Below, piece by piece: positions 49,309 through 64,000 of a DNA stretch of 64,000 nucleotides. Numbering within the stretch: position 1 is the stretch's first letter; every line of letters starts with the position of its first letter. The notes below the pieces were generated by a model that did not search any database, had not been told where the DNA came from, and was given only the letters and a program-made list of their open reading frames with translations. The position numbers and the translations under genes are program-made. Origin of the DNA: an uncultured Sphingomonadaceae bacterium (lineage in GTDB: Bacteria > Pseudomonadota > Alphaproteobacteria > Sphingomonadales > Sphingomonadaceae); assembly GCA_947493215.1 (NCBI GenBank), contig CANLQE010000003.1, positions 186,001 through 250,000 of the forward strand, in the 5' to 3' direction.

Positions 49309-50598
49309 ATGGCCAATGTAACCGTAATCGGTGCCCAATGGGGTGATGAAGGCAAAGGCAAGATTGTCGATTGGTTATCGGAACGCGCTGATGTCGTAGT
49401 CCGGTTTCAGGGTGGCCATAATGCCGGCCATACATTGGTTGTCGATGGTGAAGTCTATAAGCTCTCGCTGCTGCCTTCCGGTATTGTCCGCGGCGCGCTC
49501 TCGATCATTGGCAATGGCGTTGTGCTGGATCCTTGGCATTTGCGCGATGAGATAGAAAAGCTGAGCAAGCAGGGCGTGGCCATCAACGCCGATAATTTTG
49601 GCATTGCGGAAACTTGCCCCTTGATCCTGCCCATTCACCGTGACCTTGATGCGCTGCGTGAAGATGCCAGCGGCAAAGGCAAAATTGGTACGACACGGCG
49701 GGGCATTGGCCCAGCTTATGAAGACAAGGTTGGCCGCCGTGCCATAAGGGTCTGTGATCTGGCTTATCTCGATGATTTAGGACCACAGCTTGATCGGCTA
49801 TGCGCTCATCATGATGCGCTTCGGGCTGGTTTTGGTGAGCAGCCGGTTGATCGCGATCGCTTGCTCGCGGATCTGCGAGAGATTGCCGATAGCGTGCTGC
49901 AATATGCGCAGCCCGTCTGGAAACGCCTGAATGAAGCCCGCAAACGCGGCGACCGAATATTATTTGAAGGCGCGCAAGGCGTATTGCTCGACGTCGATCA
50001 CGGCACCTATCCCTTTGTGACCAGCTCTAACACGATTTCCGGAACCGCAGCGGGCGGATCGGGTGTTGGACCATCGGGCACCGGCTATGTGCTCGGCATT
50101 GTTAAAGCCTATACAACACGTGTTGGCTCCGGCCCGTTTCCGACGGAACTGGACGACGATGTTGGCCAACGTCTCGGCGAACGCGGCCATGAATTTGGCA
50201 CCAATACCGGGCGTCAGCGGCGCTGCGGCTGGTTTGATGCTGTGCTGGTCCGGCAGGCTCTGGCGGTGTCCGGTGTTGCCGGTATAGCGCTAACCAAGCT
50301 CGATGTACTCGACGGTTTTGAAGAGCTGAAAATCTGTGTCGGTTATGATCTAAATGGCGTAACCTATGACTATCTGCCACCTCATCATCAAGACCAGGAA
50401 GCGGTGAAACCGATTTATGAAACCGTACCGGGTTGGAGCGAGTCGACCGCCGGCGCACGTAGTTGGGCCGACTTACCTGCAGCTGCGATTAAATATATAA
50501 AACGCGTTGAAGAACTGATCCAGTGCCCGGTGGCTTTGGTGTCTACTTCTCCTGAGCGCGAAGACACGATTTTGGTGACAGATCCTTTTGCGGACTAA
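49309..50598 (+). CDS. purA: Adenylosuccinate synthetase
   Basis: This 429-residue GTP-dependent enzyme makes adenylosuccinate from IMP and aspartate in AMP synthesis. The N-terminal GTP-binding loop [41 protein letters not shown] with the IMP-binding Arg, [22 protein letters not shown] and [13 protein letters not shown] are all standard. Full length. Its final codons overlap the start of the following L,D-transpeptidase gene by 11 bp. Confidence 0.98.
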
Positions 50599-51133
50599 AA
50601 TTCTTCCACTCCTTATGTTGGTGGCGGTCACCGGTTGCAGTGCCGGTGCGGGAACTGCTCAATCAGACGAGATTGTTGAGCCTCCCGTTCCGCTACCGAT
50701 AATAGCTGCGGGTGTTAAGGCAGACAGCATAGTGGTTGACAAGAGTGACCGGACGCTGGTGCTCTATAAGACAAGCCAAGAAGTTGCCCGCTACAATAAC
50801 ATCCGCTTTGGCGCTGCGCCAGAAGGCCATAAGCGTTTTGAAGGGGATGAACGGACACCGGAAGGACGCTATACGATTGATGGCCGCAACCCCGGCAGCA
50901 GCTATCATCTGAGCTTGCGGATATCTTACCCCAATGCATCCGACCGCGCTTATGCCGCAGCGCGAGGCAAATCGCCGGGAGGTGATATCTTCATTCACGG
51001 CCAACCCAATGGCCGTAATGGCGACCTCATAAAATCGGACTGGACCGACGGTTGCATCGCTCTAAGCAATGCTGAAGTCGAGCAGATCTGGCGCGTGGTA
51101 CCTGATGGGACCGTTATTACGATACAACCCTAG
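50588..51133 (+). CDS. L,D-transpeptidase-family lipoprotein (YkuD domain)
   Basis: This 181-residue precursor has a lipobox VTGC (Cys17). Mature residues 45-180 form a YkuD domain: [43 protein letters not shown] with His137, and [12 protein letters not shown] with the nucleophile Cys156. The family cross-links or anchors peptidoglycan through 3-3 bonds or hydrolyses muropeptides; it acts in the periplasm. The TTG start at 50588 inside purA gives the best signal peptide (RTK then hydrophobic); the alternative ATG at 50615 loses the basic region. Confidence 0.88.
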
Positions 51134-51160
51134 ATTGCGTGGAAGTCCTCTGCGGATTCC

Positions 51161-52582
51161 TCAGCTATGCGAAAATCCAAAGGGCGTATTGGCCTGACGA
51201 TAATCATCGGACAAAATCTGCCGACCAATCGGCGGCGCTGAACGCGCGGGGCATTTTGTCCGGTGGCACAGGCGGCAAGTCACTCCAATCGGTGTAGCAT
51301 TTTCGGGACTGATGTCTGGGCGATCATGGGCGTAGATTAGGCGGTCGGCATGTTCCGCCGCACATCCAAGGGCAATAGCGCGTTCGACGCGCGGTGTGCC
51401 AAATGCGCCGCCGCCAGCCGTTACAGTTCTTGCAATCGAGAAGAAGCGTTCTCCATCCGGCAGTTCAAGCCATTGGGTGATGACTTGGCGCGGGGACCGA
51501 AAAGCTTGATGCACCGACCATAAGGGGCAGGCGCCGCCATGCCGTGCAAAAGGAAAGCCTGCACCGTCCAAACGTTTCGAAACATTGCCTGCCGGATCCA
51601 CGCGTATGAAGAAAAAGGGTACACGCTCTTGTCCGGGTTTTTGGAGTGTCGTGAGCCTGTGGGCTGTTTGTTCGAAACTGGTGCCAAACTGACGGGCCAG
51701 TGCCTCGACATCATAGCGGCGCGTTTCGACCGCCTTAGCGAAGGCAGAATAGGGCATGAGCAAAGCGGCGGCGGCATAACTGGTGAGGGCGCGTTTGGTC
51801 AGGCGCTCACCGCTTTCGGTCGTGAAGCTGCCCTCTTTCAGAACGGCTTCAATCTCGTTGTTCAGTTCCAGATAGGAGAGTTGCAGCGCGAGCTGGAACA
51901 TCTGGCTCGCATTGTCCAATTGGTCATCAATCAATATTTGACGCCGATGCCGATCGAGCCGCCGGGTCGCGCCCATCATGACATCCGACGGGAGCCGGCG
52001 CACCTGCAGACCATGTTTGTCCTTCAAATGCGCGACCATGCTCTCCTGACCATTCACCGTTTCGGCTAAGCGTTCGGCGGCGTCATCAATATTGGAAAAG
52101 CTGTTGCGGCGCGCGGCCAGATATCGGCGCGCTTGCGCGACGGGGTCGGCGGCATCAGGATCGACGCTGCTGCCGTCGGCACGCGGACTCGTGTCTTTGT
52201 CGGCGAGCGCCAATTGTTCTTCGCGATAGGCGGTGTAGAGACGCAGCATGGCTTCGGTAAAACCGGGATAGCTGGTCGCGACATCTGCCGTATCGAGTTG
52301 TGGAAAATCAATATCGGCAAACATCGGATCTTTGAACACGGCCTCTAACCGCGCGGTATATTCTTCGCCGCCATCGCCAGCGAGTTCCGCCATGTCGATT
52401 TTATAAGTACGCGCCAGGCGCAGCAGCATGTCGGCGGTAAAGGGGCGTTGATTGCGCTCCAACAACGCGACATAGGAGGCGGAAATCTCCAGATCGGCAG
52501 CCATATCCGCCTGCGTGAGACCGAGATCGCGGCGGAGCCTTTTCAGGCGCGGGCCCATATATACGGGGCGTTCACTGGACAT
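51161..52582 (-). CDS. Short-chain fatty acyl/acetate-responsive regulator (ScfR/RamB-like, XRE family)
   Basis: This 473-residue protein has an N-terminal helix-turn-helix (RLKRLRRDLGLTQADMAADLEISASYVALLERNQRPFTADMLLRLARTY), a middle IrrE/ImmA-like domain without the usual HExxH metal site (LALQLSYLELNNEIEAV), and a C-terminal ScfR/DUF2083 domain with a CRLCHRTKCPAR cysteine cluster. Relatives such as RamB in Corynebacterium and PrpC-type ScfR proteins control acetate, propionate and glyoxylate-shunt genes. It is divergent from aceA, with a half-site array in the spacer. The ATG at 52582 begins the conserved region; a longer ATG at 52678 lies inside the operator array. Confidence 0.9.
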   Translation of the reverse strand: MSSERPVYMGPRLKRLRRDLGLTQADMAADLEISASYVALLERNQRPFTADMLLRLARTYKIDMAELAGDGGEEYTARLEAVFKDPMFADIDFPQLDTADVATSYPGFTEAMLRLYTAYREEQLALADKDTSPRADGSSVDPDAADPVAQARRYLAARRNSFSNIDDAAERLAETVNGQESMVAHLKDKHGLQVRRLPSDVMMGATRRLDRHRRQILIDDQLDNASQMFQLALQLSYLELNNEIEAVLKEGSFTTESGERLTKRALTSYAAAALLMPYSAFAKAVETRRYDVEALARQFGTSFEQTAHRLTTLQKPGQERVPFFFIRVDPAGNVSKRLDGAGFPFARHGGACPLWSVHQAFRSPRQVITQWLELPDGERFFSIARTVTAGGGAFGTPRVERAIALGCAAEHADRLIYAHDRPDISPENATPIGVTCRLCHRTKCPARSAPPIGRQILSDDYRQANTPFGFSHS

Positions 52583-52618
52583 TTTTGATCTTCTGCATTT
52601 TTGACGACTCACATTGTT

Positions 52619-52665
52619 TGTAATATCTTTACAGCTGTACAACAATTTTTTGTAAAGCGTTACAG
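52619..52665. promoter_or_regulatory. Array of TGTAA/TTACA half-sites between scfR and aceA (probable operator)
   Basis: Within 47 bp the region has TGTAA-N5-TTACA (52619-52633), an overlapping perfect palindrome TACAGCTGTA (52630-52639), and TGTAA-N4-TTACA (52651-52664). All share the TGTAA half-site. The position, centred between the divergent regulator and aceA, and the repetition make this the likely ScfR binding region controlling both promoters. Spacing between the half-sites is 9-12 bp, near one helical turn. Confidence 0.55.
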
Positions 52666-52778
52666 TTAAACTGCACAACGCTTCGATCCAGCAGTTCTAG
52701 GGCGTAAGACAGGTCATAAGTTTCGAAAATGATTCGCAAATACACGCCGATGTAAAGCTATTTTAAAGGAGCATGACA

Positions 52779-54371
52779 ATGTCATATCAAGATCATATCA
52801 ATCAGACGGATGCGCTGATCAAAAGTCAGAACGGAACATGGGACGGCATTGATTCCGAAGCAGTCGCACGAATGCGTTTGCAGAACCGTTTCCACACCGG
52901 TCTGGAAATTGCCAAATATACCGCTGCTATCATGCGCGAAGATATGGCTGCTTATGATGCTGATACAGCTAATTACACCCAGTCGCTGGGTTGTTGGCAC
53001 GGTTTTATCGGTCAACAGAAGATGATCTCGATCAAGAAGCATTTCGGCAGCACCAAGCGCCGTTATCTGTATCTGTCCGGTTGGATGGTTGCTGCTTTGC
53101 GGTCCGAATTTGGCCCGCTGCCAGATCAGTCCATGCACGAGAAGACTTCGGTGCCTGCGCTTATCGAAGAACTATACACCTTCTTGCGTCAGGCCGATTC
53201 CCGCGAACTGGGCGGCATGTTCCGCGACATTGATGCGGCCCGTGCAAGCGGTGACATGGTCACCGAAAAGCGGCTTTTGAATGAAGTCGAAAATCACCAG
53301 ACTCATGTTGTGCCGATCATCGCTGATATCGACGCTGGCTTTGGCAATGCCGAAGCGACTTACCTGCTCGCCAAGAAGATGATTGAAGCCGGTGCCTGTG
53401 CTTTGCAAATCGAAAATCAGGTGTCTGACGAAAAGCAATGTGGCCACCAAGACGGTAAAGTTACTGTGCCACATGAAGATTTCCTCGCGAAGGTTCGCGC
53501 TTGTCGTTACGCATTCCTGGAACTGGGCGTTGAAGATGGCATCATCGTCACCCGTACCGACTCTTTGGGTGCTGGCCTGACCAAGCAGATTGCCGTGAGC
53601 AATGAGCCTGGCGATCTTGGCGACCAATATAACAGCTTCCTCGATTGCGAAGAAATCGATCCGGCAACCGCGCAAAACGGCGATGTTATCCTGAACCGGG
53701 ATGGCAAGATGATGCGTCCGAAGCGTCTGCCAAGCAATCTCTTCCAGTTCCGTGAAGGAACCGGTGAAGATCGCTGCGTGCTTGATTGCATTACATCCTT
53801 GCAACATGGCGCTGATCTTCTTTGGATCGAAACCGAGAAGCCTCATGTTGAGCAGATTGCTGGCATGGTTGACCGGATTCGCGAAGTCATGCCCAACGCC
53901 AAGTTGGTCTATAACAACTCGCCATCATTTAACTGGACCCTGAACTTCCGTCAGCAAGTATATGATGCGTGGTCAGCAGAAGGCAAAGACGTCTCCGCCT
54001 ATGACCGTGCGAACCTTATGAGCGTCGAATATGATGTGACCGAATTGGCCGCTGATGCCGATGAGCGTATTCGGACCTTCCAGGCTGATGGCGCGAAGCG
54101 GGCTGGTATCTTCCATCACTTGATCACATTGCCGACCTATCACACCGCGGCGCTGTCGACAGATAATCTCGCCAAGGAATATTTCGGTGAGCAAGGTATG
54201 TTGGGTTATGTTCTCAACGTTCAGCGCGAAGAAATTCGCCAAGGCATTGCTTGCGTGAGGCATCAAAACATGGCGGGTTCCGACATTGGTGATGATCACA
54301 AAGAATATTTTGCTGGCGACGCGGCTCTGAAAGCCGGCGGTGAAGACAATACGATGAACCAATTCGGCTAA
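52779..54371 (+). CDS. aceA: Isocitrate lyase
   Basis: This 530-residue enzyme of the longer proteobacterial isocitrate lyase subfamily splits isocitrate into succinate and glyoxylate for growth on acetate or fatty acids. Catalytic Cys and neighbours are in SDEKQCGHQDGKVTVPHEDF; IIADIDAGFGNAEATYLLAKKMIEAGACALQIENQ and LVYNNSPSFNWTLNF are also diagnostic. Active site KQCGH replaces KKCGH of shorter forms. The ATG at 52779 has AAGGAG 8 bases upstream; an ATG at 52773 sits one base from it. Malate synthase is not in the window. A strong terminator follows. Confidence 0.96.
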   Translation: MSYQDHINQTDALIKSQNGTWDGIDSEAVARMRLQNRFHTGLEIAKYTAAIMREDMAAYDADTANYTQSLGCWHGFIGQQKMISIKKHFGSTKRRYLYLSGWMVAALRSEFGPLPDQSMHEKTSVPALIEELYTFLRQADSRELGGMFRDIDAARASGDMVTEKRLLNEVENHQTHVVPIIADIDAGFGNAEATYLLAKKMIEAGACALQIENQVSDEKQCGHQDGKVTVPHEDFLAKVRACRYAFLELGVEDGIIVTRTDSLGAGLTKQIAVSNEPGDLGDQYNSFLDCEEIDPATAQNGDVILNRDGKMMRPKRLPSNLFQFREGTGEDRCVLDCITSLQHGADLLWIETEKPHVEQIAGMVDRIREVMPNAKLVYNNSPSFNWTLNFRQQVYDAWSAEGKDVSAYDRANLMSVEYDVTELAADADERIRTFQADGAKRAGIFHHLITLPTYHTAALSTDNLAKEYFGEQGMLGYVLNVQREEIRQGIACVRHQNMAGSDIGDDHKEYFAGDAALKAGGEDNTMNQFG

Positions 54372-54391
54372 TCGTCATATTTTAGACTGCA

Positions 54392-54433
54392 TTAAAAGCG
54401 GCCCGGGGATAAGATCTCCGGGCCGCTTTCTTT
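54392..54433. terminator. Bidirectional rho-independent terminator
   Basis: AAAGCGGCCCGG (54395-54406) pairs perfectly with CCGGGCCGCTTT (54418-54429), giving a 12-bp GC-rich stem, extendable inward, with TTTC TTT following on the plus strand and a run of A's preceding it (T-run on the minus strand). It lies between the convergent aceA and the cytochrome gene, so it serves both. Confidence 0.85.
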
Positions 54434-54439
54434 GGTTTG

Positions 54440-55372
54440 TCAGTCTGCAGTTTCGGCGAGGGCTGTCTTTAACAATTTGGCATCATAGAGCGACAGATGC
54501 TGCTTTTCGCTAACCAGCGTTCGGGTTTTCCGAAAGTCGTTTTCCCATTGTTCCAACGCTTCGACAAAGCCAGCACCATTGTCCATGTCCTGCAGCTCTC
54601 CTAACTTTCGGCTAGCAGCAATAATTGCACTGCGCTGCCGGGTTAGGCGCTTGCCCGCATAGCGTTCGTGGATCAAACCAAGCCGATGACGTGCGGACGC
54701 GAGCAGCAAATGGGACAGTTTCAGATCATTGCTTTGCCGCGCTTCTTTTGCCGCAAGCACGGCTTTATCAACTGCCGCCAACTGACTTTCTACCGTTACG
54801 GCTAACCGATCATTGCCGGAGCCAGCTGACAGAGACCGTACATAATAGGCGAGAGCCGCCAGAACAGATGCTGTGGGTTCCTGTCCGTTGAACTCTTCAA
54901 CAATCAAATCGCGGATGAACTTTTCCAGCTCTTGACTATTGGCAGCGCGAGAGATTTTACCCGGCGCGGTGAGGTCCGGAATCTTTACCGGATCGAATAT
55001 CGCATTGCCGCGATGGGAACTGAAAAAGCTGCTCGTGACGTCCGCTGTTCCCGGTTTTCCTGAGACATTGGGGAACAGGAATGCAGGATTGTCGCGGCCA
55101 TTTTCATGGCAACTGGCGCAGGACAGCCCTGCTTTAGCGGCCTGACCACCTAGCAAAGTTGGTGTATGGAACAAGGCTTCACCCGCAATCGCCTGCTGAT
55201 CCTGAACCGCGCCGATACCGCGCGGCTCAGTGGTCAGCGCAGCGAGATGCTGTGCCGGATCAAGCCATGCCATAGCCTGAATAAGCGGGCGATCAGCAGC
55301 CTGCGCAACTGCTGCACAGGTTAAACCGATCGCCGCACTATATTTTAGGAGACGGACGCTTCGCCAATCCAC
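54440..55372 (-). CDS. Exported cytochrome c protein with one haem site, unknown partner
   Basis: This 310-residue precursor has a signal peptide ending AQAAD and one haem motif, CASCH (about residues 85-89), in a segment ALFHTPTLLGGQAAKAGLSCASCHENGRDNPAFLFPNVSGKPGTADVTSSFF that resembles the MauG/cytochrome c peroxidase family. That family has two CxxCH sites; the C-terminal half here is helical, with no second haem motif and many Lys/Arg. It is likely a truncated or specialised relative acting in the periplasm. A GTG start at 55372 overlaps the upstream TPR gene by 28 bp; the two are cotranscribed. Confidence 0.75.
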   Translation of the reverse strand: MDWRSVRLLKYSAAIGLTCAAVAQAADRPLIQAMAWLDPAQHLAALTTEPRGIGAVQDQQAIAGEALFHTPTLLGGQAAKAGLSCASCHENGRDNPAFLFPNVSGKPGTADVTSSFFSSHRGNAIFDPVKIPDLTAPGKISRAANSQELEKFIRDLIVEEFNGQEPTASVLAALAYYVRSLSAGSGNDRLAVTVESQLAAVDKAVLAAKEARQSNDLKLSHLLLASARHRLGLIHERYAGKRLTRQRSAIIAASRKLGELQDMDNGAGFVEALEQWENDFRKTRTLVSEKQHLSLYDAKLLKTALAETAD

Positions 55373-56268
55373 CGGCGCAACTCCTCGGCTTCATAGCAAC
55401 CAAAGCTGCACAGGCTTTCGAGACGCGCTAGCTTTTTCTTAGCGCCAGCAAGATCGCCGCGTTCAACCATCAACTCGCCATAATATTCCGTGGCACCGCG
55501 ATGTTCCGGCGCAACCGCCAAAGCGGCTTGATAATATTGCTCAGCGCTTTCGAAATTTTTGAGTTTCCGATTGGCAAAGCCCAGATAGGTAAGAATATCA
55601 GGGTGCGGACCAAATGTCATTGATGCCAACTGCAGATCAGCAATGGCCGCCTCATATTTCTTTTCATTGATCAATGCGACAGCGCCCATATAGGCGAGAT
55701 CGCCATTGCCGATGCTGGCAAATTCGATGCTATCGGCAGGGTGATAGCTAGCCGAACCGCCGCCATTCATCGCCGCCTTAACTTTGGCAATTGCTTTGGT
55801 CAGCTCAGCCTTGTCCGCACAGCCAGTGCCGCACGCGCTATCTTTTGCTGTCAACTTATTGAGAGAAGCCGTTGCTTTATCAGCCATTTTCAGCTTGTGG
55901 TAGGTGATCGCCAGATCGCGATGCGCGCCGATTAACTTGCCGTTATATTTAACCGCTTTCTCCAGGGGTTTGCGGGCCTTCTTATAGTCGTTCATCCCGA
56001 TATAGCTGACGCCGAGCAGATATTGGGCGTTGGCATTGCGCGATGTGACGCTGAGCGAGCGTTTAAATGCTTTGACCGCCGCCTTATGATTTTTGGCTTT
56101 AAGGGCCGTAACACCTTTTTGATATTCGGCCGATGCGTCATATCGCGGGGCGCTGTTGCTGGGCGCTGAGCCACTGCCACCACCGCCGCCTGCGGCAATA
56201 GCCGAACCGGGATTGAAAGCGAGCGTCGTCGCTGCTCCTAAGATTACCACTGATTTGAAAATGTGCAT
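55345..56268 (-). CDS. Exported tetratricopeptide-repeat protein
   Basis: This 307-residue precursor has a signal peptide (residues 1-25, ending AIAAGG) and a Gly/Ser linker. At least five TPR units follow, such as YQKGVTALKAKNHKAAVKAFKRSLSV, AQYLLGVSYIGMNDYKKARKPLEKAVKY and GFANRKLKNFESAEQYYQAALAVAPEHRGATEYYGELMVERGDLAGAKKKL. A four-Cys insertion (ACGTGCAD and CSFGCYEAEEL) may form disulfides. TPRs mediate protein contacts, so this could scaffold the overlapping cytochrome or another exported partner (inference). Confidence 0.87.
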   Translation of the reverse strand: MHIFKSVVILGAATTLAFNPGSAIAAGGGGGSGSAPSNSAPRYDASAEYQKGVTALKAKNHKAAVKAFKRSLSVTSRNANAQYLLGVSYIGMNDYKKARKPLEKAVKYNGKLIGAHRDLAITYHKLKMADKATASLNKLTAKDSACGTGCADKAELTKAIAKVKAAMNGGGSASYHPADSIEFASIGNGDLAYMGAVALINEKKYEAAIADLQLASMTFGPHPDILTYLGFANRKLKNFESAEQYYQAALAVAPEHRGATEYYGELMVERGDLAGAKKKLARLESLCSFGCYEAEELRRWIGEASVS

Positions 56269-56411
56269 TCTGTGTCCTTTTGCTTAGATGAGCCAGATAG
56301 CATAGTTAGCCCAAAAATGGAAAATGTGTCCGATGTTCCAAAGTTCGGAAAATCGAGGCAAAAGGTTACAGAATCAAGGCAAAGGGTTGCAGGTTGATGC
56401 GCGCGCGCAGA

Positions 56412-57236
56412 TTATGGAAGGCAATTGTCAGTGTCCGACACGCTTGGCGGACCATAGAGCGACTGACACCCGGCAATATCATCTTGCACCAAAAACCGTT
56501 GCGGCCCTGAATAACTGGGGAACATCAGGGCCCCGCGCTGACGGCTGTGACCAAGACCGATGGCATGGCCAAATTCATGGGCAGCGACGGTCAGGAAATC
56601 GATTCCCTGGCTATCACCGACATTGCAGGTCCAGTTTTCATCATCGTCAAAATGCGTGTCGCCGGCGAGCGGTCCGCCATTGGGCGGAGGGAAATAAGCA
56701 TGGGCCAGCACGCCAGATGGTCCATCGAACGGGCTTTCATCACCATGCGCGCCTTGGGCAAACTCGATTTCAATATCGACGGTGCCATCTACGCTTACGG
56801 CGAAGCGAAGGTCACATTGTTGCGACCAAAGGTCAAAAGCAGCGGCAACATCGCGCTTGATATCGGCCTGTGCCATTTTCGTTGAAAAGCTGTTGAACCT
56901 GTAAGTGATGTCTGACTGTTCCCACCGGCTGACTGTGGTGAATGCGCCACCTATCGGTGGGATGTCGACGAAGCCGCAACGGGGCTTTGCCATTTCGCAC
57001 AAGGTTGCCTGATCGAGAGCGCCAGACACAGGCAAGCCGAAACAGCATTGATATAGCCGTACCGCTTTTTCCGTTGCATCATCATATTCGCCATCATGCA
57101 GGGCACCAAATCGGTCCTGAATATATCCGTAGTGCCGAAGATAAGACTGAATAGCATGGATTTCATCGCCCGACATATCGCGGGCGTAGAGCATATCGTT
57201 AGTCTGCATTTGAGAGATATTTGGGGGTGTCGTCAT
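56412..57236 (-). CDS. Matrix-metalloprotease-like matrixin with peptidoglycan-binding/pro-domain and cysteine switch
   Basis: This 274-residue protein matches the animal MMP layout. Residues about 24-84 are a PGBD-like pro-domain (IQSYLRHYGYIQ, FGLPVSGALDQATLCEM), ending in a cysteine switch P-R-C-G-F-V-D (85-91) like PRCGVPD. The catalytic domain has the structural zinc/calcium features HGDESPFDGPSGVLAHAYFP and GDTHFDDDENW, the zinc site H220-E-F-G-H-A-I-G-L-G-H230 and a Met-turn ALMFP. No signal peptide is visible at the N-terminus, so export, if any, is by a non-Sec route or the start is not complete. The ATG at 57236 has GAGG 8 bases upstream. Confidence 0.9.
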   Translation of the reverse strand: MTTPPNISQMQTNDMLYARDMSGDEIHAIQSYLRHYGYIQDRFGALHDGEYDDATEKAVRLYQCCFGLPVSGALDQATLCEMAKPRCGFVDIPPIGGAFTTVSRWEQSDITYRFNSFSTKMAQADIKRDVAAAFDLWSQQCDLRFAVSVDGTVDIEIEFAQGAHGDESPFDGPSGVLAHAYFPPPNGGPLAGDTHFDDDENWTCNVGDSQGIDFLTVAAHEFGHAIGLGHSRQRGALMFPSYSGPQRFLVQDDIAGCQSLYGPPSVSDTDNCLP

Positions 57237-57331
57237 TGGTCTCACCTCTATGAAAGAGTGTTAGCCCTGTTCGCCCACCCCCGAAATATCCCTGAGCATT
57301 TGTTGCGACCCAATGCTCGGTTATCTGGAGA

Positions 57332-57661
57332 TTATTCAGTAGTCTCTGTTTCACCTTCAGACGTTGATGGCTCTTCAGTATTTTCTTCGATCATGCTTTC
57401 TTCGCCTGCTGGAGGAGTGGCTTCACTTGCTTCCGGCAACATTTCGTCTGCGGAGGCGCCGCCGCCTTCAAGCCCGCCTTCTGCTGGCATGGCCTCATCC
57501 ATTGGTGTGGTTTCAACCGGCTCTTCCATGGGCGCGGCTTCCATTCCAGTACCGTCTTCCAAGCCATCAGCGGCCGGATCATCCGCTGGCGGAGCATCGC
57601 AAGCGGCAAGTGCAAATATCGCGGGTGTCAAAATCAAGGCTGGTTTCAATAGATTTTTCAT
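57332..57661 (-). CDS. Small acidic lipoprotein, unknown function
   Basis: This 109-residue precursor has a lipobox LAAC (Cys21). After it comes a low-complexity region rich in Glu, Asp, Ala, Pro, Met and Thr, with no predicted fold; the mature protein is strongly acidic. It could be a surface or periplasmic spacer, or bind divalent cations. It lies between the matrixin and the DGDG-repeat protein on the same strand. I recognise no family. Confidence 0.65.
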   Translation of the reverse strand: MKNLLKPALILTPAIFALAACDAPPADDPAADGLEDGTGMEAAPMEEPVETTPMDEAMPAEGGLEGGGASADEMLPEASEATPPAGEESMIEENTEEPSTSEGETETTE

Positions 57662-57778
57662 GACTTTTCATCCTTTGTCAGAGATTGTGGCGGCCAACCG
57701 AGCAGGGAGGGAGGATTGCTCGAATTGGCCGCACACTTTAGGCACAGCTTAAGGCTGGTTGGGCCTTACATGCTTTGA

Positions 57779-58063
57779 CTATTTTGGATCGGGCGCGCCG
57801 TCACCATCCTGGTCAAAAGCATCCGGGGCGCCATCGCCATCAGTATCCCAGCTATCGGGTTTACCATCACCACGTTGGTCCCAGGCATCCATTGTGCCAT
57901 CGCCATCGGTGTCAATGGTCGCAGGTGCTGCTTCAGGGGCAGGAGCGGTTTCCGCTGCTGCGCCTTCGTCTGGTGCTTCAGCACCGGCATCCTGCGCAAA
58001 ACTAGGGGCGGCCATTAATGTAGCAGCGCCAAAAGCAGCTGCAATCATTGGTAGTTTCTTCAT
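57779..58063 (-). CDS. Small exported protein with four DxDGDG calcium-site-like repeats
   Basis: The 94-residue precursor has a signal peptide (MKKLPMIAAAFGAATLMAAP, ending SFAQ), an Ala/Glu/Pro-rich linker and, from residue 51 to the end, four repeats of 11 residues. Units begin DTDGDG, DQRGDG, DTDGDG and DQDGDG and each ends Pro/Met-Asp plus two residues. These are thrombospondin type 3-like calcium-binding loops. The protein ends within the fourth repeat. The start is the ATG at 58063, with GGAG 9 bases upstream. Function is unknown; binding calcium at the cell surface is the inference. Confidence 0.72.
   Translation of the reverse strand: MKKLPMIAAAFGAATLMAAPSFAQDAGAEAPDEGAAAETAPAPEAAPATIDTDGDGTMDAWDQRGDGKPDSWDTDGDGAPDAFDQDGDGAPDPK
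57782..57913 (-). repeat. Four tandem 33-bp coding repeats (DxDGDG units)
   Basis: The 3' end of the preceding small gene consists of four in-frame 33-bp units. Positions 1, 3, 4, 5, 6 and 9 of the 11-residue unit are Asp, Asp (Arg in unit 2), Gly, Asp, Gly and Asp. Units 1 and 3 (DT) and units 2 and 4 (DQ) match each other better, which suggests growth by duplication of a 66-bp pair. Confidence 0.8.
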
Positions 58064-58176
58064 CTCACTCAACTCCATTGTTTAACCCCTGCCTATTGAA
58101 AAATGGTGGTTATTGGGCGACATTCCACAAGTAAGCGGCAGTCGGAACTGCGTGCGCGGCCAAGTGAAAAATGGCT

Positions 58177-58194
58177 GAATTTCGTCGGAAATTC
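58177..58194 (-). terminator. Possible weak terminator after dnaE2
   Basis: GAATTTC (58177-58183) and GAAATTC (58188-58194) form a perfect 7-bp AT-rich hairpin with a 4-base loop. On the minus strand, read from dnaE2, a TTTTT run follows several bases later. It lies in the 219-bp spacer after the dnaE2 stop. The AT-rich stem makes it a weak candidate. Confidence 0.3.
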
Positions 58195-58282
58195 GAGGCG
58201 GCTTACCCGAGTCGAGGAAACTGGGGCACTAATATTTTTTAGTTTGGCGAGTCCATTTTCTCGTGAGCAGGCTTATGTCAGT

Positions 58283-61200
58283 TCAATGAAAATCTCGTGA
58301 TTTTGGTAATATTCTGACATTGCGTGGATGCCCGCTGCGGGGATATTTGGGCTTTGGGACAAGCGGTTTTGTTTTTTGCTGTTCTGCCTGTCTGTCTTCG
58401 TTGCGATAGACGGGACGGTTCACTTCATCGGCTCTCACCATGGATATAGGTGTCTGCTCATGTTCTGCGATCGTGTCGAGCATAGGGGTACAATCTTCCA
58501 CCCGGCTGACCATCAAATGGGTCACGCCTTCTTTGCTATGTTGGATCTCTCCAGATGCCAGCATTAGCCGCGCCGCCATGACGGGACGGCGCATCGCTTC
58601 AAACCGGCTGGCCCAAAGCAGCAGGTTGGATATGCCGGTTTCATCTTCCAGCGTAATGAAGATCGCATTGCCTTTACCGGGCCGTTGTCGAATTAGGACG
58701 ACACCAGCGACTTGGGCGAAGGTGCCGTTTTTGGCCTTGGCTATTTCGGCGCAGCTCATCACATTCATTGCACGAAATTTATCGCGCAGAAATTCCATCG
58801 GATGGCCTTTGAGCGACAGGCGAATACTCTGATAATCGGTGACGACATGCTCGTTCTTGGTCATGGTGGGCAGGTGGGCATCTTCTTCATCGGCTTGCTC
58901 GCGGGCCTGAGCTACCTCGAACAAGGGAAGAGTATTCGATGGCGTGCGCCGGACTTCCCAAAGCGCCTGACGCCGGTCGAGACCGATGGAGCGACAGGCA
59001 TCGGCATCCGCGAGCAGGCGTAGCGCGCGGGCAGGTAGTTTCGTCTGATGTGCCAGTTGCTCGATAGACCGGAAGGGGCGGGCGGCGGCCATATGTTGTG
59101 CCCATTCTTCACGGAATCCGTCAATTTGGCGCAGGCCAATGCGCAGGGCATGCGGATGGTCGCCGCTTGCCATATCTTCCAGGCTATTATCCCAATGGCT
59201 GTGGTTGATATCGACGCCGCGCACCTCAACCCCATGTTCGCGGGCATCGCGGACAATCTGGGCGGGGGCATAAAAGCCCATCGGTTGTGAGTTGAGCAAG
59301 GCGGCAGCGAAGACCGCCGGGTGATGACATTTAATCCATGAACTGATGTACACTAATATGGCGAAAGACTGGGCATGGCTTTCGGGAAAGCCATAGCTGC
59401 CAAAGCCCTGTATCTGCTTATAGCAGCGCTCGGCAAAGTCGCGTTCATAGCCGCGCGCGACCATGCCTTCGACCATCTTCTCCTGAAAATGGTGGATGGT
59501 CCCGACATTGCGAAAGGTCGCCATCGCGCGGCGCAGCTTGTTCGCATCAACGGGTGAAAAGTCCGCTGCAACAATCGCCAGCTTCATCGCCTGTTCCTGA
59601 AATAATGGCACGCCGCAGGTCTTGCCGAGTACCGCGTGCAGTTCATCTGGATCATGCGGCGGTTTGGGCGAGGGGAGCGTGATCGCCTCGACACCGGATC
59701 GCCGCCGTAAATAGGGATGGACCATATCGCCCTCAATCGGGCCGGGCCGGACAATCGCGACCTGAATGACCAGATCATAAAATTCCCGTGGGCGCAGACG
59801 CGGCAGCATGTTGATCTGCGCGCGGCTTTCGACTTGAAACACGCCGATGCTGTCGCCCTTGCAGAGCATGTCATAGGTTGCCTCATCTTCTGGCGGTACG
59901 GTAGCGAGCGCATAATCGCCAAGATCATGATCGCGCATCATATCAAACGCCTTGCGGATACAGGTGAGCATACCGAGTGCCAACACATCAACCTTCATCA
60001 AGCCGAGCGCATCAATATCATCCTTGTCCCACTCAATGAATGTGCGATCTTCCATCGCGGCATTATGGATCGGTACAGTTTCATCAAGCCGGTCCTGCGT
60101 GAGGACAAAGCCGCCAACATGCTGTGACAGATGCCGGGGGAATTGCAGGATGTCACGAACCAGATCACCCAACCGCACGATGTCCGGACTATCGGGATCA
60201 AGGCCAGTTTCCTTGAACCGGCTATCGGGGGCCTTGCTTGAATAGCTGCCCCATACGGTGCTCGACAGCCGCGCGGTTATATCTTCGGATAGGTCGAGCG
60301 CCTTGCCAACTTCGCGGATCGCGCTGCGGGAGCGATAATGGACGACCGTGGCGGCAATGCCGGCGCGGTGGCGGCCATAGCGTTTGTAGATATACTGGAT
60401 GACCTCTTCGCGGCGCTCATGTTCAAAATCGACGTCAATATCAGGTGGCTCCTTACGTTCTTCCGATATGAAGCGGGAAAACAGCAAGTCATGTTTCATC
60501 GGATCAACCGAGGTGACACCGAGCAGGAAACAGACGGCGCTATTGGCTGCGGACCCACGCCCTTGGCACAATATACCTTCGCTGCGCGCATATTTGACAA
60601 TGTCATGAACGGTCAGGAAATAAGGCGCATATTCCAGTTTTTGGATCAGGCGCAGTTCGTCTTCTACCTTTGACCGGAGCATGTCCGGAATGCCGTCAGG
60701 GTGTTTTTCATGCGCTGCAGACCAGCTGAGATGTTCCAGCCAGTCTTGCGGCGTCCAACCCTTCGGCACGGGTTCATCGGGATAATGATAGCTGAGCTCG
60801 TCCAGTGTGAAATTGATGCACTGCAACAGCTTTTGGGTTTCAGCTATCGCTTCCGGATAGTCGGCAAAGAGCCGCGCCATTTCCTGAGGGCTTTTTAAAT
60901 GCCGCTCGGCATTGACGGCGAGCAGGCGACCAGCTTTCGCGATGGTTGTCTTCTCCGCTATGCAAGTGAGAATATCATGGAGGGGGCGTTGTTGCGGTGT
61001 CGCATAAAGCGGGTCGTTGGTTGCTAGAAGCGGAATATCAGTGGCATGAGAGAGATTGCGCAGTTCCGTTAGCTGGCGCTTGTCGCATCCGGTACGCGGC
61101 ATGGTGGCGCTAAGCCATAGATGAGGGGTGAGGGCACGGAGGCGGTGCCAGAAACGCTCTGCAGCAAGAGCACTCTGCTTACCGTGCTTGGGGAAGACAA

Positions 61201-61618
61201 TCAGCGCCATATCCTCCACCCACTCAAACAGGTCGGCTTCATATAAAAAGCAATCACCTTTTTCGGCGCGCAAGTTTCCGGTGGAGAGTAAACGCGTCAG
61301 CCGCCCCCAACCATAACGGGTCATCGGATAGGCAATGATATCCGGCGTCTCATCTGCAAAGACCAGCCGAGCGCCAACAATCAATTTGAAATCGGGTAGA
61401 GCAACGCCTTCTTCTGCGGCATCTTCATAGGCGGTGCGTAAAGAGGCATGGGCGCGGACAACCCCGGCGACGCTGTTCTTGTCGGCGATGCCGATGCCGG
61501 TCATGCCGAGCAGCATGGCCTGCGCAACCATATCAGCAGGCGAAGAAGCACCGCGCAAAAAGCTGTAATGGCTAGCCGCACATAATTCAGCAAAGACCGG
61601 TTCGGGTGGACCTGTCAC
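58283..61618 (-). CDS. dnaE2: Error-prone DNA polymerase (ImuC/DnaE2)
   Basis: This 1111-residue C-family polymerase of the DnaE2/ImuC type performs SOS translesion synthesis with ImuA and ImuB. It has an N-terminal PHP domain ([36 protein letters not shown]), the polymerase core with [19 protein letters not shown] and [20 protein letters not shown] (catalytic Asp pair), the [14 protein letters not shown] region, and a C-terminal OB fold ([26 protein letters not shown]). The GTG start at 61618 overlaps the imuB stop (GTGA); the longer in-frame ATG at 61690 lies within imuB. Confidence 0.96.
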   Translation of the reverse strand: [1111 protein letters not shown]

Positions 61619-63168
61619 GCGAACAGGCCATGGATATACCAGTCCGGATTGGCCTTCTCTGATCCATAAAGCCCGTGTCGGAACAACCAATAGCGCCGCC
61701 CGCGCATATCCTCGACCCGGTAATAGTCACGGGTCAGGCCGCCTTTTCCAGCCTGCTGCCCATCGCGCCTTTGCCACCATTCCGAAGAGATGCGTTCCGG
61801 CCCTTCATAGCGGCTGACTCGGTGGACCTTGCGCCGCCAAGTGAAACGATAGGGCGGGCCATCGGGCACCTCGGCGAGCACCTTTATGTGTTGCGGCGGA
61901 TCAAACATATGTAGAGGCCGTAAAGGCGGCTCTCCCGCCTTGGGCTTGTCCCACGCCTTGGGCGGGCCGCTATCCAGAGCGGGCAGGGCGAGCAGGCCCT
62001 GTTCGGGAATATGACTGTCCGCAGGCATGAAATGCTGAACCTGGGTCCGCCCCAGCCGGACACTGAGCTGACTGACCAATGCGGCCTGATCCCCTTGTTT
62101 GTCTTGGCCGCCTTCCAGTCGATATTGCTCCATTTCCAAACTGTCGGTGGCGACAATAGACAGCCGGATCAGGTCATAACCAAAGCCGGGATTCAGCGGA
62201 TCGTTCAGCGCGTCTATCCGTTCCCTTAGCAGGCGTTTGAACAAAGCGGCATCGCGGGTTGCGGGTGCAGTCTCAATGGCGAGGCGCGCTACGTCACCGT
62301 CACAGCGGAATAATATCATGCGGATCATCCGTGCGCCTTGGCCGCGTTCTTCAAGCTGCCGGGCCGCTTCGATAAAGAGTTCCTCCAGACAGCTTATGGC
62401 AAAATCAATATGGGTGAGTGGTTCGGCAAAACGGCGTTCAGTGGTGACATTGGCGAGCTTGCGGATCGGATCTATTGGGCGGTCTTCAATCCCCATGATC
62501 CGGTCGAGCCGAACCGCCAGTAAAGACCCAAAACGCGCGACCAAGGCGGCGCGCGGCCGCTCTGCCAGATCACCAATATGATAAAGCCCGGCGCGTTCGA
62601 GCGCGCGGTGGGTATTGTCATTCATGGCAAGGGCAGAGACAGGCAATTGCGCCTCAGCGCCTTCCCGCAAGCCATGATGGGCGAGCGCTAGCGCTGCATC
62701 GGGTGTTCCGGCCAAAGCCCATGACAGGCTGTACCCAGCTTGATCGAACCGGTCTTCGGCATCTTCGACCAGTGCGTTTTCCGAAGCGAAGAAATGGGTA
62801 CAGCCGCTAATGTTGAGTAACAACGTGCGCGGCGGGCTGACCGATACCATCGGAGTATAGCGCAAACAGGCATCGGCAAGCTGCTCAAGCAAAGCGGCAT
62901 CCGCCAGCACGTCATGATCAAAAGCTTTCAGGTCAGGCACGCGTGCCCGCGCATCGGCGAGCTTCATGCCGGGAGCAAGGCCCAGATATGCAGCCTCCCG
63001 ATCCACAGCCATCAACACCATCGCGCCCTTCACTTTTTCGATCAGGGCAAAGGGGGTGGTCAGGGCAGCGTTAAGCGCGCGCGCGTATTTTTTCGTGATC
63101 CGTTCTGATTCCAGATACGGCAGGAACAGCGCTAATATCCGGCGCTTCCTGAAAACTTCTTGTTTCAC
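61615..63168 (-). CDS. imuB: ImuB, inactive Y-family polymerase-like protein
   Basis: This 517-residue protein of the Y-family polymerase fold starts KRRILALFLPYLESERITKKYA. The catalytic acidic residues of real Y-family polymerases are not at the expected positions, as in other ImuB proteins. It acts as a hub that links ImuA, DnaE2 and the beta clamp in SOS mutagenesis. Regions ALAGTPDAALALAHHG and RALERAGLYHIGDLAERPRAALVARFG are typical. The GTG start at 63168 has GGAG 7 bases upstream and lies 98 bp inside imuA. Confidence 0.94.
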   Translation of the reverse strand: MKQEVFRKRRILALFLPYLESERITKKYARALNAALTTPFALIEKVKGAMVLMAVDREAAYLGLAPGMKLADARARVPDLKAFDHDVLADAALLEQLADACLRYTPMVSVSPPRTLLLNISGCTHFFASENALVEDAEDRFDQAGYSLSWALAGTPDAALALAHHGLREGAEAQLPVSALAMNDNTHRALERAGLYHIGDLAERPRAALVARFGSLLAVRLDRIMGIEDRPIDPIRKLANVTTERRFAEPLTHIDFAISCLEELFIEAARQLEERGQGARMIRMILFRCDGDVARLAIETAPATRDAALFKRLLRERIDALNDPLNPGFGYDLIRLSIVATDSLEMEQYRLEGGQDKQGDQAALVSQLSVRLGRTQVQHFMPADSHIPEQGLLALPALDSGPPKAWDKPKAGEPPLRPLHMFDPPQHIKVLAEVPDGPPYRFTWRRKVHRVSRYEGPERISSEWWQRRDGQQAGKGGLTRDYYRVEDMRGRRYWLFRHGLYGSEKANPDWYIHGLFA

Positions 63169-63877
63169 GGTTCCACTCCAAACGGACGTTTAAGCCATCC
63201 AACCCGCCGCGATGGCGCAGTAATGTAAGTTCAAAAACAGGATGGCCGACCGCATTGGCCGCCAGCGCTTTTGACGGCGCGGCTGCGACTTGCCAGCGGC
63301 TAAAGGCGGCGCTGGGCATCGGTGCGGCTTTGCTGCGCAGCATGAAGGTCGTTACGCCGGATTTCTTGGCAGACAGCGCCAAGCGCCGGGTCGCGGTCAG
63401 ATCCAGGCCTTTGGGGTTTTTACCCGCCAGTTCCACAATCACGGCCCCGATGGGTGCGCAACGCACCGCGTCTGCGGCGGCGCGCAGCACCGCGATGCTA
63501 TCGGCGGCATCAATATATAATATGTGATCGGGATTAATCCCTAATTCGACCAGACCGGGCGGGTAAAGCCGCCCCTGCCGCCGGGCTTCCCCACGGTCTC
63601 GTACCCATGTAATCGGTTGATCTGATGTCTCCGCCGCCATCCGCGCACGCGCTGCCAGAAGGAGGGTCAGGGCGGCGGCGTTGCTGCTATCATCCGGTTC
63701 GGCAGTATGAATTTCGTGAAGCTGCGCCAGTGGCAAGCCATGATTAGGCGTTTCTTTTGATAGGGCGATATCAAGGGACGCTGCCCCAAAAGTGAAATTG
63801 GGAACCGTGATATTGTCCAGCATCTGTGACTTATGCGCGCTAAACTTCTCTAATATATGCGAATCGACTATGTTCAT
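63071..63877 (-). CDS. imuA: ImuA (RecA-like SOS mutagenesis accessory protein)
   Basis: This 268-residue RecA-fold protein, first gene of the imuA-imuB-dnaE2 cassette, has LDIALSKETPNHGLPLAQLHEIH, ALTLLLAARARMA, GLVELGINPDHILYIDAADSIAVLRAAADAVRC and AVIVELAGKNP segments as in other ImuA proteins. It is thought to modulate RecA in translesion synthesis. I choose the ATG at 63877; it lies inside the LexA box and very near the expected transcription start, so the mRNA may be leaderless. An ATG at 63901 is in frame but upstream of the predicted -10. Confidence 0.9.
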   Translation of the reverse strand: MNIVDSHILEKFSAHKSQMLDNITVPNFTFGAASLDIALSKETPNHGLPLAQLHEIHTAEPDDSSNAAALTLLLAARARMAAETSDQPITWVRDRGEARRQGRLYPPGLVELGINPDHILYIDAADSIAVLRAAADAVRCAPIGAVIVELAGKNPKGLDLTATRRLALSAKKSGVTTFMLRSKAAPMPSAAFSRWQVAAAPSKALAANAVGHPVFELTLLRHRGGLDGLNVRLEWNRETRSFQEAPDISAVPAVSGIRTDHEKIRARA

Positions 63878-63886
63878 GGTTTGTTC
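63872..63886 (-). promoter_or_regulatory. LexA (SOS) box overlapping the imuA start
   Basis: GTTCATGGTTTGTTC on the plus strand (GAACAAACCATGAAC on the coding strand) is an exact match to the alphaproteobacterial LexA consensus GTTC-N7-GTTC. It covers the imuA start codon and would block transcription when LexA is bound, releasing the cassette after DNA damage. A further GAAC (63896-63899) makes GTTCT-N7-AGAAC with part of the box. Confidence 0.85.
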
Positions 63887-63887
63887 T

Positions 63888-63915
63888 AATTTATAGAACA
63901 TTCAAAACGGGTCAA
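63888..63915 (-). promoter_or_regulatory. Predicted imuA promoter
   Basis: On the minus strand TTGACC (63910-63915, -35) is followed after 16 bases by TAAATT (63888-63893, -10). The expected transcription start lies about 6-8 bases further, next to the LexA box and the ATG at 63877. From 63916 to the window end I see no gene. Confidence 0.55.
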
Positions 63916-64000
63916 GGGGAACGGCGTTTCGGGGTCGTGATTTTACATTGCTGTATCCCGCCGCAATAGACTATGAAGCTCCTCAGGATAAAGGGATAAG

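Follow-up and report, generated by a model that had tools for sequence, protein, structure and literature searches.

In vertebrates the matrix metalloproteinases (MMPs) of family M10A, such as proMMP-1, -3, -7 and -9, share a zymogen plan in which a prodomain is followed by a PRCG cysteine switch, a linker, a structural-zinc and calcium region, the catalytic motif HExxHxxGxxH and a Met-turn. The Arg and Asp of the switch hold its loop, and most human MMPs, MMP-7 being an exception, carry a hemopexin domain as well. In the part of the literature available to us the PRCGXPD form of the switch is ascribed to mammals, probably other animals, plants and fungi (PMC6949598), and karilysin, a bacterial MMP of Tannerella forsythia, is described with a prosegment of 14 residues and an aspartate switch (PMC6949598). 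According to the available excerpts a prosegment Cys blocks the zinc in mirolysin and myroilysin (PMC8259862, PMC6949598); these are cysteine-switch metzincins like the protein presented here, but they belong to the pappalysin and astacin families, have short prosegments and, in the case of mirolysin, carry a signal peptide (PMC8259862). A recent MMP phylogeny left the position of the root between bacteria and animals unsettled (PMC12587646), and in a word search of the main text as available the terms ‘cysteine’, ‘prodomain’ and ‘propeptide’ were all missing (PMC12587646). Our literature search, judged by titles and the first parts of abstracts and with subscription papers mostly outside its reach, returned no bacterial M10 protein with a PRCG switch.

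Here we analyzed a window of DNA, meaning the whole stretch of 64,000 nucleotides from contig CANLQE010000003.1 of an uncultured Sphingomonadaceae bacterium, that encodes a protein of this kind (Table 1). The original prediction had described an animal-MMP-like metalloprotease with a prodomain and a cysteine switch, and all motifs it quoted are present, on the minus strand: the prodomain segment GLPVSGALDQATLCEM (residues 67-82), PRCGFVD with the switch Cys at residue 87, HGD...FDGPSGVLAHAYFP (164-183) and GDTHFDDDENW (192-202) of the zinc and calcium region, HEFGHAIGLGH and the Met-turn. The zymogen architecture it proposed is borne out by Pfam, which finds a PG_binding_1 and a Peptidase_M10 domain, and by an alignment with the human proMMPs that extends from the prodomain to the end of the protein. 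With a catalytic domain above the curated cut-off, HExxHxxGxxH and a Met-turn the protein classifies as a matrixin (M10A), and its matrixin domain is complete, with the full set of predicted metal ligand residues. Alignment with human MMPs also points to the HDHH structural-zinc quartet and the calcium-binding region of MMPs; we take His164, Asp166, His179 and His195 to be the structural zinc ligands. A serralysin-type M10 was rejected for this gene, and a chance motif is ruled out by the E-values and the 12 conserved orthologs described below.

Table 1. Features of the MMP locus (positions in the window)
Feature	Position	Strand	Evidence and remarks
MMP zymogen gene	57236..56412	minus	274 aa; ATG at 57236, stop 56412-56414; translation, Pfam, 12 genus genomes
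Shine-Dalgarno-like GAGGTGAG	57241..57248	minus	window sequence and upstream regions of 12 orthologs
PG_binding_1-type prodomain, residues 22-79	57000..57173	minus	Pfam 47.7 bits (cut-off 23); aligned with human proMMP prodomains
PRCGFVD cysteine switch, residues 85-91 (Cys87)	56964..56984	minus	aligned with PRCGVPD of human MMPs
Linker, residues 93-103, expected activation point before Phe99	56928..56960	minus	alignment
Peptidase_M10 catalytic domain, residues 104-262	56451..56927	minus	Pfam 177.4 bits (cut-off 24), profile positions 1-159 of 159
Putative structural Zn/Ca region	56652..56747	minus	HDHH columns aligned with human MMPs; invariant in ortholog alignment
Catalytic zinc motif HEFGHAIGLGH, residues 220-230	56547..56579	minus	translation; ortholog and human MMP alignments
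Met-turn ALMFPSY, residues 236-242	56511..56531	minus	translation; ortholog alignment
TPR protein, Sec-like N-terminus, co-inherited with MMP gene	55345..56268	minus	Pfam TPR, synteny, hydropathy; not found in G014
c-type cytochrome-like protein, Sec-like N-terminus, overlaps TPR gene	54440..55372	minus	CASCH by eye; synteny; absent from G014 syntenic site
Acidic lipoprotein-like gene, upstream border of MMP-TPR-cytochrome block	57332..57661	minus	synteny; adjoins isocitrate lyase-like gene in G014

The likeness to the human enzymes extends beyond the catalytic domain. In a phmmer search against PDB sequences the window protein matched human matrilysin with an E-value of 4.5e-51 over residues 45-265, the switch lying within the match. 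A profile built from seven switch-bearing bacterial proteins matched human stromelysin-1 at profile positions 24-262 and human interstitial collagenase at 21-261, both matches spanning prodomain, switch, linker and catalytic domain. Phe99 of the linker shares a column with the Phe in the RTFPG sequence of MMP-3, number 83, which becomes the new N-terminus on activation; the column holds Phe in MMP-3, -7 and -9 and Thr in MMP-1, in an alignment where the matrilysin chain has an altered active-site Glu and MMP-9 is represented by a construct. Unlike the vertebrate zymogens, the window protein is bacterial, has no signal peptide and no hemopexin domain, carries extra cysteines and has Val in place of the Pro of PRCGxPD. 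Karilysin (locus L011) is 44% identical in the catalytic domain and has like residues in the ligand columns; it differs in its leader-like N-terminus and in matching none of the prodomain columns.

A search with PF00413 among 32 genomes of the genus gave a match in 13; the match in G022 proved to be an RTX protein of serralysin-like type and was not counted, which leaves 12 carriers (12 of the 24 good-quality genomes), and a second, weak match in G001 was likewise left out of the carrier count. The PRCGxPD-type motif between prodomain and catalytic domain keeps its Cys, Arg, Gly and Asp in all 12 orthologs, whereas the Pro is replaced by Val in the window protein and by Ala or Glu in some of the others. 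Cys87 and with it Arg86, Gly88, Asp91 and Phe99 are invariant in the 12 while the codons vary, Cys87 being encoded by TGC or TGT; in the alignment the window protein and nine orthologs have the switch Cys, the HDHH quartet, HEHH plus the Met, Phe99 and Asp253 without exception. Eight cysteines are present in the window protein, and five of them, Cys87 included, are invariant in the 12 orthologs. In the 66 pairwise comparisons among the 12 genes dN averages 0.085 and dS 1.58, the latter close to saturation, with a dN/dS of 0.054; by segment, dN/dS is 0.065 in the PG-binding prodomain, 0.035 in the switch segment and highest, 0.19, in the linker. As all carriers share one site, dN/dS is about 0.05 and Cys87 is invariant, the MMP gene is under purifying selection, although conservation within one genus is not independent evidence.

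We found no signal peptide in any of the 12 orthologs by simple hydropathy, in line with the original prediction, which had seen none. Peak N-terminal hydropathy over 12 residues lies between -0.14 and 0.82 in the orthologs, compared with 1.84-2.34 in the TPR, cytochrome-like and lipoprotein-like neighbours and 0.07-0.76 in three presumed cytosolic proteins. The start codon is preceded by GAGGT(G/A)AG in eight of the orthologs and by related purine-rich stretches in the other four, and because of this ribosome-site-like stretch and the low hydropathy an error in the start codon is unlikely to be the cause of the missing leader. The lack of a leader extends beyond the orthologs: at a hydropathy cut-off of 1.7, set by us, a hydrophobic N-terminal segment was seen in none of 16 prodomain-bearing bacterial proteins (10 from the genus and six from elsewhere) versus 15 of 20 rows of switchless bacterial matrixins, or 14 of 18 distinct proteins, as two are counted twice (L012/L205 and L014/L214), with L015 and L016 incomplete. 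Some starts in this count are doubtful: those of L045 and L213 were poorly chosen, the annotated Streptomyces start of L045 giving a hydropathy of 0.75, and L203 has an in-frame hydrophobic stretch upstream.

The order of the genes is constant in the 12 carriers: lipoprotein-like, MMP, TPR and cytochrome-like genes are followed by an isocitrate lyase-like gene on the opposite strand (the neighbour names isocitrate lyase, DnaE2 and typA were assigned by eye, and Pfam gives no family for the cytochrome-like protein). In a tree of the lyase-like gene DNA from 30 of the 32 genomes the carriers form one clade (99/99) with G014 as sister. That genome is 97% complete and gave neither an MMP nor a TPR match; a distance of 209 bases separates the lyase gene from the end of its lipoprotein-like match (56% over residues 1-84), a gap too short for three genes, so the MMP, TPR and cytochrome-like genes are missing at the syntenic site, and past the next gene its order differs from that of the window. 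Since this site is empty, the three genes were gained or lost as one block, and the direction could be either. The TPR and cytochrome-like genes (54440-56268) overlap and also occur as a pair: diverged pairs without an MMP gene lie at other sites in G003, G005 and G026, and in G026 and G005 (L089, L091) the pair adjoins a gene resembling the typA GTPase. Next to the lipoprotein-like gene, at 57779-58078, we noted a small protein with a leader-like N-terminus and DxDGDG repeats that is unmatched in Pfam. Where the lyase-like and cytochrome-like genes converge, a hairpin of 16 pairs with a T-containing tail (54395-54429) lies between them and is perhaps a terminator; in scans for promoters and terminators the sites were no more numerous than in shuffled sequences. 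The GC content of the MMP gene is 0.536 compared with 0.529 for the window, and its GC3 of 0.542 falls within the 0.427-0.629 of its neighbours. Contamination with eukaryote DNA is ruled out, as 12 genomes share the locus and its GC is typical. An origin as phage cargo was likewise rejected: by eye no phage genes were recognised among the frames of window 50000-64000, and a search of 50,697 phage records at E 1e-5 left the window protein unmatched.

What could a zymogen of this type do in a cell that makes it without a leader? We consider it probable that the protein is kept latent in the cytosol by ligation of Cys87 to the zinc and is activated after release, either through cleavage of the prodomain before Phe99 or through modification of the thiol. 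The PG_binding-type prodomain would lay the PRCG segment across the active site, where Cys87, whose position over the zinc is read from the alignment, would ligate the catalytic zinc, and Arg86 and Asp91 would hold the switch loop. A leaderless protease needs to be silent in the cytosol, and a reduced thiol on the zinc would provide this silence in the reducing compartment in which the enzyme is made. Release might occur by lysis, in vesicles or by some leaderless route; a cut close to Ala98-Phe99, or a change of Cys87 by oxidation or alkylation, would then free the zinc, and the opened, calcium-stabilised protease might cut extracellular proteins. The replacement of the PRCGxPD Pro by Val, Ala or Glu counts against such a switch, and so do the eight cysteines, five of them invariant, which make disulfides or another thiol role possible. 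As both the TPR and the cytochrome-like protein begin with a leader-like segment and are inherited together with the MMP gene, it is possible that they take part in its release or activation.

The same absence of a leader in all 12 orthologs would also suit an intracellular protease under redox or metal control that is never exported and becomes active in the cytosol when stress modifies Cys87. The additional conserved cysteines, as well as the fact that by eye no secretion machine was recognised among the close neighbours of the MMP gene, agree with an intracellular role. However, MMPs require millimolar calcium, and the conserved calcium and structural-zinc region would fit the exterior of the cell better, as would the leader-like N-termini of the co-inherited neighbours; we regard a purely intracellular protease as unlikely. 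It might also be argued that the PG_binding domain primarily anchors the enzyme in the cell wall and inhibits it only secondarily, the substrates being envelope proteins of the own or of neighbouring cells. The prodomain does score as PG_binding_1 and has weak matches to PHROG endolysin profiles; yet in the available part of the source this Pfam signature is reported from a plant MMP and many matrixins, so that it says little about binding (PMC2715019), and a leader to the periplasm is absent. Such an anchor seems to us quite improbable.

Proteins resembling the leaderless zymogen are sparse outside the genus. Four of 347 genomes of the family matched, three of them from the genus itself and one (G269) from another genus, whose minus-strand protein L042 is a diverged M10 in which NFCGVPD precedes the catalytic domain and is itself preceded by some 70 residues without a visible leader. 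It matches one of 60 prodomain columns and has a very long branch in the tree; we left it out of the 16 prodomain-bearing proteins, and it is likely a distant switch-bearing relative. Among 385 genomes of the class and 299 of the phylum, 13 with a match in each case, the prodomain was matched only in the window's own gene; these samples overlap, and the genome searches scored only some candidates (six or eight) per genome. In the phylum of a Chitinophagaceae MAG (296 genomes) ten had a match at E 1e-10, two of which reach the prodomain, and in that of an Acidobacteria MAG (297 genomes) one of 31 does so; 38 of the 40 loci taken for alignment gave a readable row, and the three that reach the prodomain all have the switch Cys. 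This agrees with the earlier statement that most bacterial matrixins lack the switch. Among 72,556 plasmid records, the form in which Bacillota and Actinomycetota were covered, nine matched. In three of these (Paenibacillus sonchi, P. amylolyticus and Streptomyces globosus) the match spans 80% or more of the query; they have RCG and the Asp at the switch; H4 and H7, two plasmid matches beginning near the switch, were rejected, as on reading both prodomain and switch proved absent.

The six prodomain-bearing relatives from outside the genus (L203, L204, L213 and the three plasmid proteins) show the same order of parts as the window protein with 32.5-47% identity and keep the switch Cys in every case; several differ from it in having long C-terminal repeat regions, and by blastp their loci share no neighbour with the genus locus. 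A bacterial group in which this Cys is not conserved, named in the original prediction as evidence that would speak against it, was not encountered: all 16 prodomain-bearing bacterial proteins retain it. Near the switch-bearing MMP gene of two genomes we noted proteins of 143 and 183 aa (L243, 2583-3014, minus, and L244, 6126-6677, plus) without Pfam family that are 27% identical to each other (E 1.6e-18) and might be an inhibitor or partner. On the S. globosus plasmid the gene directly before the MMP gene (L045, 1560-2825) bears the annotation serpin, the name of a family of protease inhibitors.

Similar proteins are found on contigs whose viral identity rests on IMG/VR. Among the best 80 of 98 viral loci, which were the ones kept, so that these numbers are not frequencies, 19 rows (16 distinct proteins) match at least 20 of the 60 prodomain columns and have a Cys at the switch column; in four of the rows (L154, L164, L166 and L186) this Cys is not followed by Gly. 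None of the 19 has a hydrophobic N-terminal segment or the HDHH quartet. PG_binding, RCG and M10 occur together in L126 (4956-5723), L130 (4956-5765) and L152 (4974-5774), and also in L127, L144, L146, L151, L163 and L194. Proteins of the L126, L130 and L152 type have prodomain, switch Cys and HExxHxxGxxH in common with the window protein and, like it, no leader; they lack its HDHH quartet, and the two compared are 28-32% identical. Of ten neighbouring genes scanned on these contigs three had PHROG matches, one including a weak match to a portal protein. Prodomain and switch Cys without a leader are shared by a sparse set of bacterial proteins and by some proteins on viral contigs.

Has the gene been acquired from an animal? 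In blastp the closest protein outside the genus is L203 of the Bacteroidota (47% over residues 22-262, 228 bits), followed among the bacterial relatives by P. sonchi (190 bits, 39%), L204 and L213 (166 each), P. amylolyticus (120) and S. globosus (105); the human pieces, which are trimmed alignments, gave 176 bits for MMP-7 (43%), 168 for MMP-1, 167 for MMP-3 and 146 for MMP-9. The MMP-1, -3 and -7 pieces thus outscore four of the six relatives, whereas L203 and P. sonchi, which both look leaderless, score above the best of them. The animal likeness in the original prediction is right for the architecture, but a special animal character is not supported: the single best match outside the genus is bacterial, though an animal source is conceivable. 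In a catalytic-domain tree of 77 rows, with four human sequences standing for all eukaryotes, the genus is recovered with 100/100 and forms a weakly supported set with the human MMPs and the P. sonchi protein (83/76). AU tests rejected none of three groupings of the genus, whether with other alphaproteobacterial M10s (p-AU 0.165), with Bacteroidota (0.201) or with human sequences (0.262), a fourth grouping being already present in the tree. After addition of three new bacterial proteins the backbone was without resolution, and of all rows from outside the genus L203 lay at the shortest path. Uptake of the gene from an animal, an alga or another eukaryote, with the MMP zymogen plan retained and the signal peptide lost, would account for the high similarity to human MMPs and is compatible with the weak set in the tree and with the AU test. 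Apart from the two bacterial proteins that score higher, native-like GC and GC3 stand against it; as GC is near that of the window and GC3 within the neighbours' range, any transfer would be old. Taken as a whole, we judge a eukaryote donor to be very unlikely.

It is also conceivable, if doubtful, that the bacterial and viral matrixins with PG_binding domain and cysteine switch but no leader form an ancient prokaryotic class from which the zymogen plan of animal and plant MMPs originated. On this view the switch might at first have been a safety device: a protease kept in store in the cytosol would stay reduced and inactive there and become armed once released. The genus would be a close present-day example of the class, linked to a TPR-cytochrome pair that is exported and might aid release or thiol oxidation. 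What seems new in the alignments is an M10A-type zymogen of the animal plan that is nevertheless leaderless and bacterial. Whether a cysteine switch works when the protein is synthesised with no signal peptide has thereby become testable. Bacterial proteins with the whole animal-type plan add a further character that can be traced on the MMP tree, and it can now be asked whether this zymogen plan may be older in bacteria than in animals.
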